Shown here one piece after another: positions 6,745 through 41,912 of a stretch of DNA of 41,912 nucleotides. A program made the position numbers and the translations under genes. The notes below the pieces were generated by a model. It searched no databases. It saw nothing but the letters and a program-made list of their open reading frames with translations, and had not been told where the DNA came from. Source of the stretch: Bacillota bacterium (GTDB lineage: Bacteria > Bacillota > Sulfobacillia > JAJZYS01 > JAJYTV01); the NCBI GenBank assembly GCA_021799275.1, contig JAJZAT010000026.1:1-41912 (forward strand). Direction: 5' to 3'. Position 1 is the stretch's first letter. Every line of letters starts with the position of its first letter.

Positions 6745-8169
6745 ATGGTCGTGGCGGAACGTCAGGGTATCGTGTATCACCATCGCGCCGTGCTTTCCGA
6801 CATGCAGACGCCGATCGGCATCTACCAGGCGGTCGCCGGCCGACCCGGGGCCTTCCTGCTCGAAAGCGCCCCTACGCGCCAGAGCGTCGGCCGGTACTCC
6901 TACATCGGCTGGGACCCGCTCTACCGGCTCCAGGCCAAGGAGGGATTTATCCGGCTGGAGCATGACGGGCGCACCGAGCGACGGCATGCTCCCGCCTTCC
7001 AGGAACTGCGCCAGCTCTACGCCCGCATCGAGAGCGCGCGGGCAAGCGACGAGCTGCCCCCGTTCTTCGGCGGTCTCGTCGGCTATATCGGCTACGATGT
7101 CGTGCGCGAGTTCGAGCGGCTTGGCACGGCCCCCGCGGACGATCGTGGGCTCCCTACGCTGCACTTCGTCGTGCCGCGTCATGTCGTCGCCTATGACCAC
7201 GTGACCCGCATGGCGCACCTCGTGGTGGCGGACGAGGATGAGAACCCGGGCGAGGCGCGGGTGCGGCTCGACCAGATGGAGCGGCTGATCCGGCGCGCCA
7301 GGCGTTCGAGCAGCCGGACCGGGGGAGCGCCCGAGCTTCTCGCGAGGTCGCTGACGCGGGAAGCGTACATGGCGCGCGCCCTGCGCGCCAAGGAAGCGAT
7401 CGCCGCCGGCGAGGTCTTTCAGCTGGTGCTCTCGCAGCGGCTCGCCTATCGCACCGGGGCATCCCCTCTGGACGTCTACCGGGTGCTCCGCTCGATCGAT
7501 CCGTCGCCCTACATGTTCCACCTGCGCCTGCCGGGGTTCGCGTTCTACGGCAGTTCGCCCGAGACGCTGGTCCGGGTGGACGGCCGGCGCGTGATGATCC
7601 GGCCGATCGCAGGCACCCGGCCGAGGCCACAAAAGGCCGAGGACCTCGAAGAGGTGGCGCAGGAGCTCGCGCTGGACCCGAAGGAGCAGGCGGAACACCT
7701 CATGCTGCTGGATCTCGGCCGCAACGACGTCGGCAGGGTGGCGGCGCCGGGAAGCGTCAACGTGCGCAGGAGCTTCGCGGTCGAGGAGTACGCGCGGGTG
7801 CTGCACCTCGTCTCGGAAGTCGAGGGCGAGCTCAAGGAGGGAGCCACGAGCCTCGATGCCCTCGTGGCCGCGTTCCCCGCCGGCACACTCACGGGCGCGC
7901 CGAAGATCCGCGCCATGCAGCTGATCGACGAGCTCGAGCCGGTGGCGAGGGGACCTTACGGCGGGGCTGCGGGCTACATCTCTGCGGACGGCAACCTCGA
8001 CTTCGCCATCGCGATCCGCTCGATCGTGCAGACAGGTGACATCGCCTACCTGCAGTCCGGTGCTGGCATCGTCCAGGATTCCGATCCGGGGCGCGAGTAC
8101 GAGGAGTGCATGCACAAGCTCGCGGCCCTGAGGCAGGCGCTCGAGCTGGCGGGGGGTGCACTCCAATGA
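6745..8169 (+). CDS. trpE: Anthranilate synthase component I
   Basis: A 474 aa protein that converts chorismate to anthranilate with ammonia from TrpG, the first step of tryptophan synthesis. The N-terminal domain carries the Trp-feedback motif FLLES followed by RYSYIGWDP. The catalytic domain has PIAGTRPRP, the metal/chorismate region LDLGRNDVGRV, and PAGTLTGAPKIRAMQLIDELE. ATG 6745 follows GGGAGG by 9 bp and lies 22 bp past the T-run of the T-box. It overlaps trpG by 4 bp. The T-box and the TrpG partner favour TrpE over PabB. Confidence 0.95.
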   Translation: MVVAERQGIVYHHRAVLSDMQTPIGIYQAVAGRPGAFLLESAPTRQSVGRYSYIGWDPLYRLQAKEGFIRLEHDGRTERRHAPAFQELRQLYARIESARASDELPPFFGGLVGYIGYDVVREFERLGTAPADDRGLPTLHFVVPRHVVAYDHVTRMAHLVVADEDENPGEARVRLDQMERLIRRARRSSSRTGGAPELLARSLTREAYMARALRAKEAIAAGEVFQLVLSQRLAYRTGASPLDVYRVLRSIDPSPYMFHLRLPGFAFYGSSPETLVRVDGRRVMIRPIAGTRPRPQKAEDLEEVAQELALDPKEQAEHLMLLDLGRNDVGRVAAPGSVNVRRSFAVEEYARVLHLVSEVEGELKEGATSLDALVAAFPAGTLTGAPKIRAMQLIDELEPVARGPYGGAAGYISADGNLDFAIAIRSIVQTGDIAYLQSGAGIVQDSDPGREYEECMHKLAALRQALELAGGALQ

Positions 8170-36881: not shown

Positions 36882-37095
36882 CTGCAGAGAGATTCGCCCG
36901 ACGGGCCACTCTTCCTGCCGTTCGCGGCAAGGGACACATGGTCCGAATGTCGCAAGTTGTCGGTCTCAAGGCACACGGGACTTTGGCCCTGTGGCGCGCG
37001 AAAGTGTAGGACCTGAGGCCTACGACCCGGGGTGGACGCGGGCAGAGGCCAGAGCGGGTACGCTTCCCCTGAATCCAGGCAGAGGAGGCGTTCCT

Positions 37096-37860
37096 ATGCG
37101 GACATCCACCGAGTGGCCCCAGGGGCTCTCTGTCTTGCTCATCACCGGTGCGTCGAAGGGACTTGGCCTCGCCATGAGCCGGGCCTGGGCGGGCCCGGGC
37201 AGAACGCTCGCGATCGCGGCGCGGGACGCCAGGCGCCTTGGGGAGGTACGGGATGAACTCGCGTCCCTGGGCGCCCAGGTGCTAGCCGTGCCAGGCGACG
37301 TGGGCGAGCGGGGATTCCCGGAATTCCTCGTCGAGGAGACCCGGCGCAGGCTCGGGCCCGTCACGCATCTCGTCACCTGCGCATCGTCGCTCGGTGCCCT
37401 GCCGCTCGGACCGCTCGCCGACGTCGACGACCGTGGTTGGGACGAGGTCTGGCGGACGAACGTGCTGGGTGTCGTGCGGATCTGGCGCGGCGTGCTGCCG
37501 GCCATGGAGGGCGAACTCGGAGGGGGACGCATCCTCCATGTCTCGTCCGACGCCGCCGTCGAGGCCTATCCGCACTGGGGCCCCTACGGGGCGACCAAGG
37601 CCGCGGTCGATCACCTTGCCCGCATCCTCGCGGCCGAGCTTGACCTGCATGGGCACCCAAACGTACGTGTGTACGCTGTCGATCCGGGCGACATGGACAC
37701 GGAGATGCACCGGGCAGCGATCCCCGATGCCGATCCGGGCGAGCTCCTGCGGCCCGAGCATGTGGCGCCGGTCCTGAGGGATGTTCTGCTGCGCAGACCT
37801 GCCCTGCCCTCGGGCCGCTACCGGGCGGCGGAGATCGCCCTGAGAGGAGGGGCACGATGA
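37096..37860 (+). CDS. Short-chain dehydrogenase/reductase
   Basis: A 254 aa SDR protein. The cofactor loop is LITGASKGLGLAMSRAW, AARDARRLGEV follows strand 2 (NADP-type basic residues), and the catalytic Ser and YxxxK are in HVSSDAAVEAYPHWG and YGATKAAVDHL. Substrate unknown. ATG 37096 follows GAGGAGG by 6-7 bp. It overlaps the QueA-like gene by 4 bp, which ties the two functionally. Confidence 0.87.
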   Translation: MRTSTEWPQGLSVLLITGASKGLGLAMSRAWAGPGRTLAIAARDARRLGEVRDELASLGAQVLAVPGDVGERGFPEFLVEETRRRLGPVTHLVTCASSLGALPLGPLADVDDRGWDEVWRTNVLGVVRIWRGVLPAMEGELGGGRILHVSSDAAVEAYPHWGPYGATKAAVDHLARILAAELDLHGHPNVRVYAVDPGDMDTEMHRAAIPDADPGELLRPEHVAPVLRDVLLRRPALPSGRYRAAEIALRGGAR

Positions 37861-38963
37861 TGACGGCGGTGCCATCTCTGCTGCCCGAACCCGATCTCGA
37901 CCTCGGCATCGCCGATGGGCGCCTGCTTGCGGCCAGCGAGCCGGCGGAGATCCGAGGCGGCGGGCGCGACGACGTGCGGCTTCTCTTGCAGGAGCGGGAG
38001 TCTGGTCGGCTTGAGCACCGGCACTTCAGGGAACTTCCGGATCTCCTGCGCAGGGGCGACCTCCTGGTCGTCAACCGGTCCGCAACGCTGCCGGCGAGCC
38101 TGCCGGCCCTGGACGCCGCAGGGCGGCCGCTCCGCTTGCACGTCGCCCAGCGACTCGGCGCCGGATTGTACCGGCTCGAGGCGCGCGGTGCGGACGGGCT
38201 CCAGCCCGCCGAGCGCGTGCCCGCGGCGGGCGAGCGGCTCTCACTCGCGCGTGGCCAGGGAGATCGGCTCGGTCTCAAGGTCATGCGCAGGGCCAGCGCC
38301 ACATCGCGGCAGGTCGTGGCGGCGGTCGACGGGTCTCGCAGTCTTCTTCCATGGTTGGTGGAGAGCGGCCAGCCGATCCGCTACGCCTACGTGCCGCGCG
38401 CATGGCCGATCGAGTTCTACCAGACCGTCTTCGCGGGACCGCCGGGATCGGCGGAGATGCCCTCGGCTGCGCGTCCCTTCAGCCAGGGCACGCTGGCGGC
38501 CCTACGCAGGCACGGCGTCCGAGTCGTCGCCCTCACCCTGCACTGCGGCCTTTCGAGCGAGGAGGTGGCCGGGTCCCTCACCCAGCATTACCTGCCACCG
38601 GAGTTCTATCGGCTGCCTGCCGCCACGGTGCGGGCCATCCTGGAGACGAGGGCGTCCGGCGGCAGGGTGATCGCGGTCGGGACGACGGTGGTGCGCGCCA
38701 TCGTCAGCGCGACCCGCGGCGGAACGCTCGCCGCGGGTCGCGGACTCGCTGGAGCCGTGGTGCGCCCGGGCACCGACGTGCGCCTGATCGACGGACTCCT
38801 CACCGGCCTGCACACGCCGCGGAGCTCCCATCTCGCCATGCTTGAGGCCTTCGCGCCGCCGGAACATCTGTGGCTCGCCTACGAGGCCGCGATCGAACGG
38901 GACTATCTCTGGCACGAGTTCGGTGACGTGCACCTCATCCTGCCGGGCGGACCCGAGGCCTGA
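37857..38963 (+). CDS. Divergent QueA-like (AdoMet:tRNA ribosyltransferase-isomerase family) protein
   Basis: A 368 aa protein of the QueA family. Shared parts are GDLLVVNRSATLPASLP, IEFYQTVFAGPPGSAE, GGRVIAVGTTVVRAI and YLWHEFGDVHLILPGG. The QueA signatures are changed: PTAGLHF is PSAARPF, LHVGLGTF is LHCGLSSEE, and NFHLPRST is GLHTPRSSH. This resembles the QueA-like group I recall from actinobacteria, whose function is not established. ATG 37857 overlaps the SDR stop; no tgt, queG or queC-F genes are near. True QueA cannot be excluded. Confidence 0.75.
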   Translation: MMTAVPSLLPEPDLDLGIADGRLLAASEPAEIRGGGRDDVRLLLQERESGRLEHRHFRELPDLLRRGDLLVVNRSATLPASLPALDAAGRPLRLHVAQRLGAGLYRLEARGADGLQPAERVPAAGERLSLARGQGDRLGLKVMRRASATSRQVVAAVDGSRSLLPWLVESGQPIRYAYVPRAWPIEFYQTVFAGPPGSAEMPSAARPFSQGTLAALRRHGVRVVALTLHCGLSSEEVAGSLTQHYLPPEFYRLPAATVRAILETRASGGRVIAVGTTVVRAIVSATRGGTLAAGRGLAGAVVRPGTDVRLIDGLLTGLHTPRSSHLAMLEAFAPPEHLWLAYEAAIERDYLWHEFGDVHLILPGGPEA

Positions 38964-38993: not shown

Positions 38994-40514
38994 GTGGCGA
39001 CGACGCCCCTTGGGCGAAGCGAAGCGCTCAGGCGCGTGGCGGAGGCACTCAACGAGACGCTGGACGCGGAAGCGGCGATCGCGGCTCTCCTGCCGCAACT
39101 CGAGCAGCTGCTCGGCCTGCGTACGGCCTGGGCGTTCCGCTACCGGCCCGAGCGCGGCGACTTCGTCAAGATCGCCGCCACCGGCCTGCCGCCCGCCTTG
39201 GCGAGGGACGACCAGGCCGCGCTCGAGGAGCAGGGCTGCGAGTGCCAGCGCCGCTTACACGCCGGCCAGTTGCCGCAGGCCGTCAACATGGTGACCTGCT
39301 CTCGCCTGCGCGACGCGAAGGGGGACAAGCAGGGCCTCGTGCTGCACGCCAGCGTGCCGTTGCGCCGTGGCGAGCACACGCTCGGCATCCTCAACGTGGC
39401 GGCCCCAGGGCGGACGCACTTCGATGAGGAGTCGCTCGCGCTCCTGTCCGCGGTCGGCAGCCAGTTCGCCGTGGCGCTCGGCCGCGCTGAGTCCCAGGCG
39501 GCCGCGGAGCGCCGGGCCGGGCAGCTGGCCGCGCTCGCGGAGGTGGCGACGGCCCTCACGGCGGAGAGCGAACCCGGCGCGATCCTGCGTCTCGCCGCCA
39601 CGCTGGGCGTCGATCGCCTTGGCATCCCCGCGATCGCCATCGTCCAAGCACATGGCGGGGTTCTGGCGGCGGCCTCGCGCGATCTCCAGCTGTCGGCCGC
39701 GCGGGATCCGGAGAACGCGGGCCCTCGCCTCTTCCCTGGCAGCGGCGCCGTGGTTAGGTACCAGATTTCGGCATCCGAGTACCTGCAGGCGGAGACCGGG
39801 GAGTGTCAGTTCGAGCCCGTGGACCTGTCGGTGCAGGAGGCGTACCTAGCTCTGCTGCGCAGCGTGCTTGCCGCCGCACGGCGGCAGGAGGAACTGCGCC
39901 GCGGCGCGGTCATCGAAGAACGCCAGCGTATCGCCGCGGATCTGCACGACGCCGTGAGCCAGCGGCTCTTCGCCGCCATCCTGAACTTGCGCACCGCGCG
40001 TCTGGCGACGGCGGACAGGCCCTTGAACTCCGAGGCGCAGCTTGCGGCCGCCGAACAGCAGCTCCGCACCGCGCAGGCCGAACTGCGCACCCTGGCGCAC
40101 ACGCTGCTCTGGCAGGCCCCGAGAGACCTGGGCGCGGCCCTGCGGGACCTCGTCCACGCCTTCTCGGTCGGCAGCGGGCCGAAGGTCTCGGCGCGTATCG
40201 GGGCCATCCCGGAGATCCCGCCGACTTCCGCGCAGGCCATCCTGCGGGTGGCGCAGGAGGCCCTGCACAACGCCGTGCGGCACGCCGGAGCGTCGCGCAT
40301 CCACCTCAGCCTTGGCGAGCGCCAGGGCGCCATCGTGCTCAAGGTGCGAGACGACGGGCAAGGTCTACCCCCGGAGCCTGGCCCCGGTGCCGGCCTTGCG
40401 TCGATGCGGGCAAGGGCCGACGCGGTGGGCGCCGGACTCAACATCAGCGGTCCAAGAGGACGCGGTGTGACGGTGGAGCTGAGGCTGCCCGCGCGGGGAG
40501 GTGACGGGCGGTGA
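38994..40514 (+). CDS. GAF-domain sensor histidine kinase (HisKA_3 type)
   Basis: A 506 aa cytoplasmic kinase without membrane segments. The N-terminal GAF domain (about 10-165) carries Cys82, Cys84 and Cys102 (QGCECQRR and VTCSRL). A second, weaker sensory region follows. The dimerisation helix has the phospho-acceptor His318 in ERQRIAADLHDAVSQRLF, and the ATPase domain has AQEALHNAVRHAGAS and DDGQGLPPEPGPGAGLASM. This is the NarX/LiaS/DesK class. GTG 38994 follows GGAGG by 7 bp, 30 bp after the QueA-like gene. It overlaps its response regulator by 4 bp. Confidence 0.9.
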   Translation: MATTPLGRSEALRRVAEALNETLDAEAAIAALLPQLEQLLGLRTAWAFRYRPERGDFVKIAATGLPPALARDDQAALEEQGCECQRRLHAGQLPQAVNMVTCSRLRDAKGDKQGLVLHASVPLRRGEHTLGILNVAAPGRTHFDEESLALLSAVGSQFAVALGRAESQAAAERRAGQLAALAEVATALTAESEPGAILRLAATLGVDRLGIPAIAIVQAHGGVLAAASRDLQLSAARDPENAGPRLFPGSGAVVRYQISASEYLQAETGECQFEPVDLSVQEAYLALLRSVLAAARRQEELRRGAVIEERQRIAADLHDAVSQRLFAAILNLRTARLATADRPLNSEAQLAAAEQQLRTAQAELRTLAHTLLWQAPRDLGAALRDLVHAFSVGSGPKVSARIGAIPEIPPTSAQAILRVAQEALHNAVRHAGASRIHLSLGERQGAIVLKVRDDGQGLPPEPGPGAGLASMRARADAVGAGLNISGPRGRGVTVELRLPARGGDGR

Positions 40515-41170
40515 ACGAGGGCGCGATTCGTGTGATGATCGTCGATGACCATCCCATGGTGCGGGAGGGACTTGCCGCGTTTCTCGGCCTCGCGGAGGAC
40601 CTCAGCCTGGTGGGCGAGGCGGGTGACGTGGAAAGCGCCTCGGAGATGGCCATGAGGCTTCGCCCGGACGTCGTCCTGCTCGACCTCGTGCTGCCTGGCG
40701 CTAAGGGGGCCGGTGCGGTGGGGGCGATCCGAGAAGCCTCGCCCGAGAGCAGGATTCTTGTGCTGACGTCGTTTGCGGAACCCGAGCGGGTTCTCGGGGC
40801 GCTCGCCGCAGGCGCGGCAGGCTACCTTGCCAAGACCGTGGCGCCTGAGGATCTGCTGGCCGCTGTACGACAAGTGGCGGGAGGGCGGTCCGTACTGGAC
40901 GAGGAGGCCCTCAAGGCGGCATCGCGGCACGGGGATAGGCGCTTGCCGACCGGCGAAGCGCTTACTGGCCGCGAGATGGAGGTTCTGGCCTTGATCTCCG
41001 AAGGCTGCGACAACCAGGAAATTTCCCGGCACCTCGCCATCGCCGAAAAGACGGTGAAGGTGCACGTCGGCCGCATCTATGCGAAGCTCGGCGCGCAGAA
41101 CAGGGCGCAGGCGCTCGTGCTCGCGGCGCGCCTGGGCCTTGTTTCGCTGGCGCCGCCCGATCCGCCCTAG
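40511..41170 (+). CDS. NarL/LuxR-family response regulator
   Basis: A 219 aa regulator. The receiver domain has Asp12/Asp13, phospho-acceptor Asp58 (LLDLVLPG), Thr86/Ser87 and Lys108 (YLAKTV). The C-terminal LuxR-type helix-turn-helix begins LTGREMEVLALISEG and includes EKTVKVHVGRIYAKLG. The start overlaps the kinase stop, so the two form one signalling pair. Its TAG stop overlaps the stop of arsC on the other strand. Targets are unknown; the SDR/QueA-like genes upstream are candidates. Confidence 0.93.
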   Translation: MNEGAIRVMIVDDHPMVREGLAAFLGLAEDLSLVGEAGDVESASEMAMRLRPDVVLLDLVLPGAKGAGAVGAIREASPESRILVLTSFAEPERVLGALAAGAAGYLAKTVAPEDLLAAVRQVAGGRSVLDEEALKAASRHGDRRLPTGEALTGREMEVLALISEGCDNQEISRHLAIAEKTVKVHVGRIYAKLGAQNRAQALVLAARLGLVSLAPPDPP

Positions 41171-41580
41171 AGGCTTTCGGCCAGACTTTGCAGCCTCGCT
41201 GCGATCTCGTCGCGCACCTGCCTGAAGATCTGCAGGCGCGCTTCTCTTCCGCCCTGGGCCCGTGCCGGGTCCGGCAGTCCCCAGTGCAGCCGCCGCACTT
41301 CAGGCGGGGTGACAGGGCAACGCTCCTCGGCGTCGCCGCAGAGCGTCACGGCCATATCGGCTGTGCGCAGCCGATCGACGTCGATCGGCTTGCTGTACTG
41401 GCGCGAGATATCCACCCCGGCCTCGGCCATCACCCGAACCGCCAGCGGATGCAGGCTGGAGGGCTCGAGGCCGCCGCTCAGGATCTCGAACCGGTCGCTG
41501 AGCAGCTGGCGCGCGAACCCTTCCGCCATCTGGCTGCGGGCGGAGTTTCCGGTGCAGATGAAGTAGATGAGAGGTTTCAT
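41167..41580 (-). CDS. arsC: Arsenate reductase, thioredoxin-coupled (LMW phosphatase fold)
   Basis: A 137 aa protein of the pI258 ArsC type. The P-loop is ICTGNSARSQMAEGFA with Cys9, and the shuttle cysteines are Cys81 and Cys88 (LCGDAEERCP), the full Cys triad of thioredoxin-dependent arsenate reductases. It turns arsenate into arsenite for export. ATG 41580 has a weak GGGG site upstream. No arsR, arsB or acr3 is visible. The stop overlaps that of the response regulator. Confidence 0.88.
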   Translation of the reverse strand: MKPLIYFICTGNSARSQMAEGFARQLLSDRFEILSGGLEPSSLHPLAVRVMAEAGVDISRQYSKPIDVDRLRTADMAVTLCGDAEERCPVTPPEVRRLHWGLPDPARAQGGREARLQIFRQVRDEIAARLQSLAESL

Positions 41581-41912
41581 GATCTGCCCCCAATGGAGGA
41601 GTGCAGGAAGTCGAACCCTGCTGTCTTGGACGCTAAAGGGCGCGGCGCAAGGACACAAGTTAAGATTTTGTTGCGTCACGGCTCCTGGCCGGAGCTCTGA
41701 TTGTTCTCTTCTATTTGGCGGTCATCACCCACTGGCCTCCCTTCTTCGCTGTGGTGATCTTCGATTATAAAGCGGCAGCAGGGATCGGCCTGCCCGCAGA
41801 CGTGACCAAGGGTGCGGTGCATATCTGTGGTGGTGCGCTAACCCAATCTAGGCAGCATCTTGGGCATCCCGCCTGATGAGTGCAACGCGAGGTGCATTGC
41901 GGAGCGGACGGT
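41581..41912. other. Gap without a supported gene
   Basis: No complete gene is seen. A plus-strand frame from 41664 to about 41875 without a start codon encodes a hydrophobic stretch (LIVLFYLAVITHWPPFFAVV), possibly a decayed membrane-protein fragment. On the minus strand a TATAAT (41769-41764) could be a -10 box for arsC, but lacks a -35 box. Base composition is lower in GC than the neighbouring genes. Confidence 0.3.

Follow-up and report, generated by a model that had tools for sequence, protein, structure and literature searches.

The QueA-like gene in this window, by which is meant the whole stretch of 41,912 nucleotides analyzed here, is best supported as a paralogue of QueA that stands outside the queuosine pathway. 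It forms a conserved, translationally coupled pair with a gene for an SDR family oxidoreductase, and at most of the loci compared the pair appears to have its own sensor of oxygen or redox state beside it. We tentatively read it as a redox-induced pair of enzymes that would modify a small molecule rather than tRNA, using AdoMet chemistry of the QueA type, and give this reading slightly less than an even chance. The original interpretation is partly supported: the paralogy, the coupling and the lack of tgt in many carriers bear it out, while the ribosyl transfer and the SDR step that it suggested are hypothetical. The locus is laid out as follows.

36978..36989, no strand: weak operator candidate GGACTTTGGCCC (inside GGGACTTTGGCCCT), 5' of the SDR gene, with one mismatch to GGNCNTANGNCC; about 10% of controls contain an equal match
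37006..37023, no strand: imperfect palindrome GTAGGACCTGAGGCCTAC, a second operator candidate found by reading the sequence, 73-90 bases before the SDR start
37083..37089, plus strand: GAGGAGG, ribosome binding site just 5' of the SDR gene
37096..37860, plus strand: SDR family oxidoreductase, 254 aa (Pfam adh_short, 1.1e-40)
37857..38963, plus strand: QueA-like protein, 368 aa (Pfam Queuosine_synth, PF02547, 2e-69), starting inside the SDR stop
38445..38480, plus strand: signature 1, residues 197-208, GSAEMPSAARPF (GSxAAPTAGLHF in QueA), from alignment with relatives and QueA
38538..38564, plus strand: signature 2, residues 228-236, LHCGLSSEE (LHVGLGTFR in QueA), from alignment
38805..38834, plus strand: signature 3, residues 317-326, GLHTPRSSHL (NFHLPxSTLL in QueA), from alignment
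38907..38936, plus strand: signature 4, residues 351-360, LWHEFGDVHL (RF[FY]SFGDAML in QueA), from alignment
38994..40514, plus strand: GAF sensor histidine kinase (HisKA_3), 506 aa, by Pfam
39237..39299, plus strand: cysteines C82, C84 and C102 of the kinase GAF domain (C-x-C-x17-C), a motif also present in relatives
40511..41170, plus strand: NarL/LuxR-type response regulator, 219 aa, by Pfam

The SDR and QueA-like reading frames share a 4-base ATGA overlap, and the coupled pair described in the original prediction is exact to the base. The kinase gene begins 30 bases after the QueA-like gene, and its reading frame overlaps that of the regulator, which matches VraR (1e-45), NarL (1.5e-39) and DevR (1e-38). 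Because all four genes run in the same direction with this spacing, they probably constitute a single operon. On the minus strand, 41167-41679 appears to encode a protein like a low-molecular-weight phosphatase or an arsenate reductase (ICTGNSARSQMAEG), in convergent orientation to the gene of the regulator.

In a tree of 126 sequences, the phylogeny that had been called for, the QueA-like proteins occupy one side of a branch with an SH-aLRT of 100 (82 against 44 rows) and thus form a clade of their own, separate from true QueA. Both QueA equivalog models score the window protein well below their cut-offs (TIGR00113, 146.5 bits against 267.45; NF001140, 173.5 bits against 324). The fold is nonetheless that of QueA, as had been proposed: in addition to the PF02547 match, the AlphaFold model (pLDDT 92.2) finds 1vky in Foldseek at 1e-24, and in structure comparison only three structures stand out, all of them QueA (1vky, 1wdi and 1yy3), with Z of 24-26 over both domains. 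The Foldseek TM-scores to QueA are just 0.5-0.67 despite these Z values, which may perhaps reflect a difference in domain orientation.

The three segments originally singled out as altered are indeed so, and among relatives they prove to be fixed signatures of the family; the fourth signature had not been named. Their family forms, nearly invariant in the clade, are GSAEMPSAxRPF, LHTGVxS, TGxHEPxxSHL and WHEFGDVHL. Some 25 positions are fixed in the clade differently from QueA, with E200, S203, R206, H325 and W352-H353-E354 as new fixed residues and H359 also among the departures, and about 11 basic positions conserved in QueA have become non-basic, in some cases acidic. An invariant core is common to both groups (N73, Y178, Y188, G197, P202, H229, E249, G275-T-T, R280, T316, H319, Y342 and G356-D357). 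Among enzymes for which AdoMet serves as ribosyl donor, QueA is the best known. The shared core points to retained handling of AdoMet in the QueA-like proteins, although it could serve some other AdoMet chemistry, and the lost basic positions together with the new polar residues suggest an acceptor different from that of QueA. Net charge was also considered as an argument against RNA binding and was set aside; it discriminates poorly between the groups, and the copy in the window is itself basic. This copy departs from its own family at T320, where about 94% of members have E, and at V283 (codon 38703-38705), where Glu is invariant in 42 true QueA proteins and 81 relatives, the nearest (L002) included. 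Given V283 and the weak operator matches, it could be impaired or altered in activity.

The genome of the host, 97.5% complete with 3.14 Mb on 61 contigs, carries a single PF02547 gene and no second queA. The genome search that had been suggested finds no match to tgt, queG or queH anywhere in it, and of queC only 60-residue fragments scoring 20-21 bits; no queuosine genes lie near the pair either, as originally noted. On these absences a queuosine pathway in the host was rejected, and a full pathway lacking any other queA, named beforehand as the contrary outcome, is not what the genome contains. The original statement that such proteins occur in actinobacteria without the pathway also finds support. 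Thirty-three of 50 further genomes with a relative, actinobacterial ones above all, lack tgt. All 50 have a relative scoring about 220-278 bits with PF02547, and in 14 a true QueA (340-462 bits) is present as a separate gene, accompanied by tgt in every case except one metagenome-assembled genome (MAG), G014. Four carriers have a tgt match and no true QueA (G021, G026, G029 and G031), and none of these four has queG above cut-off or queH. In G021 the match covers only a short piece where a contig begins, and G031 is an archaeal MAG. In G026 and G029, the Trueperaceae MAGs that hold loci L035 and L039, tgt appears as two adjoining pieces of one frame and the QueA-like protein is the only PF02547 protein, which counts against our reading; they may salvage queuine, lack contigs in the assembly or be genuine exceptions.

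The partnership with the SDR is a consistent property of the family. Among the best 80 relatives from the scan, a sample that therefore leans toward near ones, an SDR gene is immediately 5' of the QueA-like gene in 76, and in 67 of these 76 the start codon overlaps the SDR stop, in keeping with the adjacency expected from the window. Three of the four exceptions (L053, L076 and L077) start within 160 bases of a contig end, while the fourth, L016, has about 1 kb of upstream sequence. At the 42 true queA loci examined, the flanks (about 1.5 kb) contain no match to the SDR, the kinase or the regulator; in comparable stretches the SDR is found at 15 of 16 QueA-like loci. The window protein is a classical SDR by its TGxxxGxG motif and N-S-Y-K tetrad, and the catalytic residues N122, S151, Y164 and K168 are invariant in 73 partner SDRs. 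The motif (as TGxxxGLG) and tetrad are shared with classical members of PF00106 such as clavaldehyde dehydrogenase (2jah). Unlike these, the partner SDRs have signatures of their own (ASSLG, SSDAAVxAYPxWGxYG and DPGDMDT), found in the Rhizobium partner as well, and their best solved relatives reach only 83-87 bits, a level uninformative as to substrate. No further conserved enzyme gene was seen in the neighborhood, where most of the other clusters in common seem to reflect synteny within genera.

The sensors beside the pair, which had not been part of the original prediction, offer the best clue to its physiology. Judged by their sequences, these are usually of one of four kinds: a DevS-like haem GAF kinase, an AirS-like cysteine GAF kinase, SoxR, or a SufR-like regulator. 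A sensor kinase and response regulator adjoin the pair, in several gene orders, at 42 of the 53 loci with full flanks, and do so in Actinomycetota, Bacillota, Vulcanimicrobiota and Chloroflexota; further cases nearer contig ends come from Deinococcota and Bacteroidota. The combination of a GAF sensor with a NarL-type regulator is that of DevS/DosT-DevR and AirS-AirR. In contrast to those systems, the one at the pair looks local rather than global, its motif often being unique to the cassette. Most of the kinases without the cysteines have the DevS motif HPxMxxFLG, the histidine of which we take to be the haem ligand, and the GAF domain of one (L010) aligns to DevS GAF structures at 7e-28 with this motif in register, as expected of the DevS/DosT type. 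Kinases without the histidine motif instead have C-x-C-x17-C or close variants, corresponding to three of the four cysteines in the [2Fe-2S] GAF motif of AirS, Cys-X7-Cys-X-Cys-X17-Cys (PMC4601167). The window kinase is of this kind; it lacks the first cysteine and so falls short of the full AirS motif, and against PDB sequences it matches in the kinase core only, with no GAF match to DevS.

Among loci that lack a two-component system, a regulator adjoins the pair at nine (in Acidimicrobiia and others) that is SufR-like rather than assignable to SufR, since three members match TIGR02702, the SufR equivalog, over their full length at 90-108 bits against a cut-off of 178.8. At two more loci (L073 and L078), soxR is divergent to the SDR gene with a palindrome in between. 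The L073 protein is SoxR by TIGR01950 (207.8 bits, cut-off 116.9); both contain CIGCGCLTLRxC (CX2CXCX5C), and L078 is assigned by close similarity. The loci on Rhizobium plasmids, which belong to a more distant paralogue family, have soxR, the SDR and the QueA-like gene in the same order. On Rhizobium etli p42f (L160), a redoxin-domain gene at 7394-8077 comes after the pair; it is unannotated at that place in the other Rhizobium records viewed. A resemblance lies in the SoxR regulons of non-enteric bacteria such as Streptomyces coelicolor, in which SoxR controls a few redox enzymes (PMC4146615). Those recorded there, however, contain no QueA-like gene, and at the pair SoxR is only one of four kinds of sensor. 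At some carriers, including Thermogemmatispora, no sensor was found.

Candidate operators accompany many of these loci. The palindrome GGNCNTANGNCC occurs exactly in 33 of 77 stretches upstream of the pair, mostly some 50-80 bases 5' of the SDR start, and in 1% of control stretches; it was derived from the same loci, so that its presence there is partly by construction, while its rarity elsewhere is not. In the window, the imperfect palindrome GTAGGACCTGAGGCCTAC lies near the position at which other loci have theirs. In eight actinomycete genomes, GGTCCTAGGACC is present as a single copy at the cassette in five, has extra copies elsewhere in two, and has no exact copy in one. Its being the sole genomic copy in five argues for a dedicated, local regulator, and a global regulon defined by the motif was rejected, as the sites beyond the cassette are at seemingly unrelated genes such as rpoA. 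The palindromes 5' of the SDR gene at L073, L078 and the Rhizobium loci resemble what we take to be a SoxR box, and similar sequences are found at L058 and L074. At L057, L049, L025 and L026, there are A+T-rich palindromes about 30-40 bases before the SDR gene (AACAAG-N6-CTTGTT, AAAGATAG-N8-CTATCTTT and CGCAAG-N6-CTTGCG). Because the first three of these loci have a SufR-like gene 3' of the pair, their palindromes may be the operator of that regulator.

The pair is spread over about eight phyla, an estimate in which assignments based on MAGs may include contamination, and it is also found on plasmids. The QueA-like gene is present in 60 of 297 genomes sampled evenly from the class to which Glycomyces belongs. 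Of 199 genomes drawn from the phylum of the host, which its nearest named relative places in Bacillota, just the host itself and G240 have matches well above the rest; the others, not all of them placed in a tree, look like ordinary QueA.

In the route proposed for QueA, deprotonation and loss of adenine are followed by attack of the preQ1 amine and by ring closure with loss of methionine (PMC10491745). By analogy, the QueA-like protein would open AdoMet, with adenine leaving and later methionine, and would place a ribose-derived carbon unit on an acceptor other than preQ1 in tRNA. Using NAD(P)H, the SDR would reduce or oxidize either this acceptor or the product. The two enzymes would work in sequence on a small molecule, and the overlap of stop and start codon would keep the two proteins matched. 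A sensor at the locus, of haem or Fe-S type (in the window the cysteine-GAF kinase with its response regulator), would switch the pair according to O2, NO or redox-active compounds. As the enzymes and pumps under SoxR control outside the enterics are presumed to act on redox-active metabolites (PMC4146615), the likeliest acceptor, by analogy, may be a redox-active metabolite or xenobiotic. It is possible, though we lean against it, that the full ribosyl transfer-isomerization of QueA has been reused on a small molecule other than tRNA, in a redox- or hypoxia-induced pathway of two enzymes that would produce undescribed cyclopentane-bearing metabolites across these phyla.

That the gene is simply a fast-evolved QueA of the queuosine pathway is very improbable. 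Such a reading could point to the Pfam family name, Queuosine biosynthesis protein, and to the two Trueperaceae MAGs, but these also lack queG and queH, and it would have to account for a host without the pathway genes, scores below both equivalog cut-offs, a separate clade, and 14 carriers in which the true QueA is a second gene. QueA and the QueA-like proteins share a fold over both domains and an invariant core; the latter differ in their SDR partner, their lost basic positions, their place in the tree and in having no need of tgt. Retention of the whole fold would equally suit an enzyme that still acts on RNA, modifying another base with a different acceptor and leaving the SDR to finish the modification, and RNA modification genes can be under stress regulation. 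The loss of some eleven basic positions, some now acidic, speaks against this, as does the lack of any further RNA-modifying gene conserved beside the pair; we know of no SDR steps in RNA modification, and consider the idea quite unlikely.

Two other alternatives are unlikely to about the same degree. The QueA-like protein might act on AdoMet as a lyase or hydrolase with no acceptor at all, lowering AdoMet or freeing adenine and methionine under redox stress, with the SDR reducing the aldehyde or sugar fragment left over. According to the route proposed for QueA, AdoMet is depurinated first and an open-chain aldehyde then forms as an intermediate (PMC10491745), a possible substrate for reduction by an SDR, and the residues on the acceptor side are replaced; yet the new invariant polar residues E200, R206, H325, H353 and E354 look more like a new binding site than the loss of one. 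Alternatively, the pair may make an endogenous redox cofactor or signal instead of processing a redox-active compound. Sensors as different as haem and Fe-S types would fit a general need at low O2 or under redox stress, and the pair is present in lineages not known to produce redox-active compounds, but its patchy presence, in one class and on plasmids, is more in line with an optional function than with a core cofactor.

Modification of a small molecule by a redox-induced pair, our preferred reading, bears on annotation as well as on physiology. Given so large a paralogous family with its own partner and sensor, labels of 'queuosine biosynthesis' are probably wrong in many genomes. A redox-stress pathway, possibly with new AdoMet chemistry, would be approachable in cultivable carriers such as Glycomyces, Actinoplanes, Streptosporangium and Rhizobium etli. 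No paper on the pair was found in the open-access literature searched, which takes in few subscription journals, and one review treats QueA for queuosine alone (PMC10491745).

Other PF02547 paralogues lie outside this family. Two Bacteroidetes genomes have a third such gene (L112, 4111-5331, and L113, 7115-8443, both on the minus strand); proteins of this type score 302 and 357 bits and, considered as possible members, branch within true QueA on long branches. A phage origin was likewise discarded, the phage matches being about 30% identical and, by similarity and not by tree, like true QueA. The distant paralogue family on Rhizobium plasmids, the one with soxR, shares Y176, E200, S203, S234, G317, H325, H353 and E354 with the main family. 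On a plasmid of Sinorhizobium meliloti GR4 (L163, 5923-12372), a QueA paralogue that branches alone, near QueA, is accompanied by two radical SAM genes and a diaminopimelate decarboxylase-like gene, and this group is perhaps a natural product cluster.
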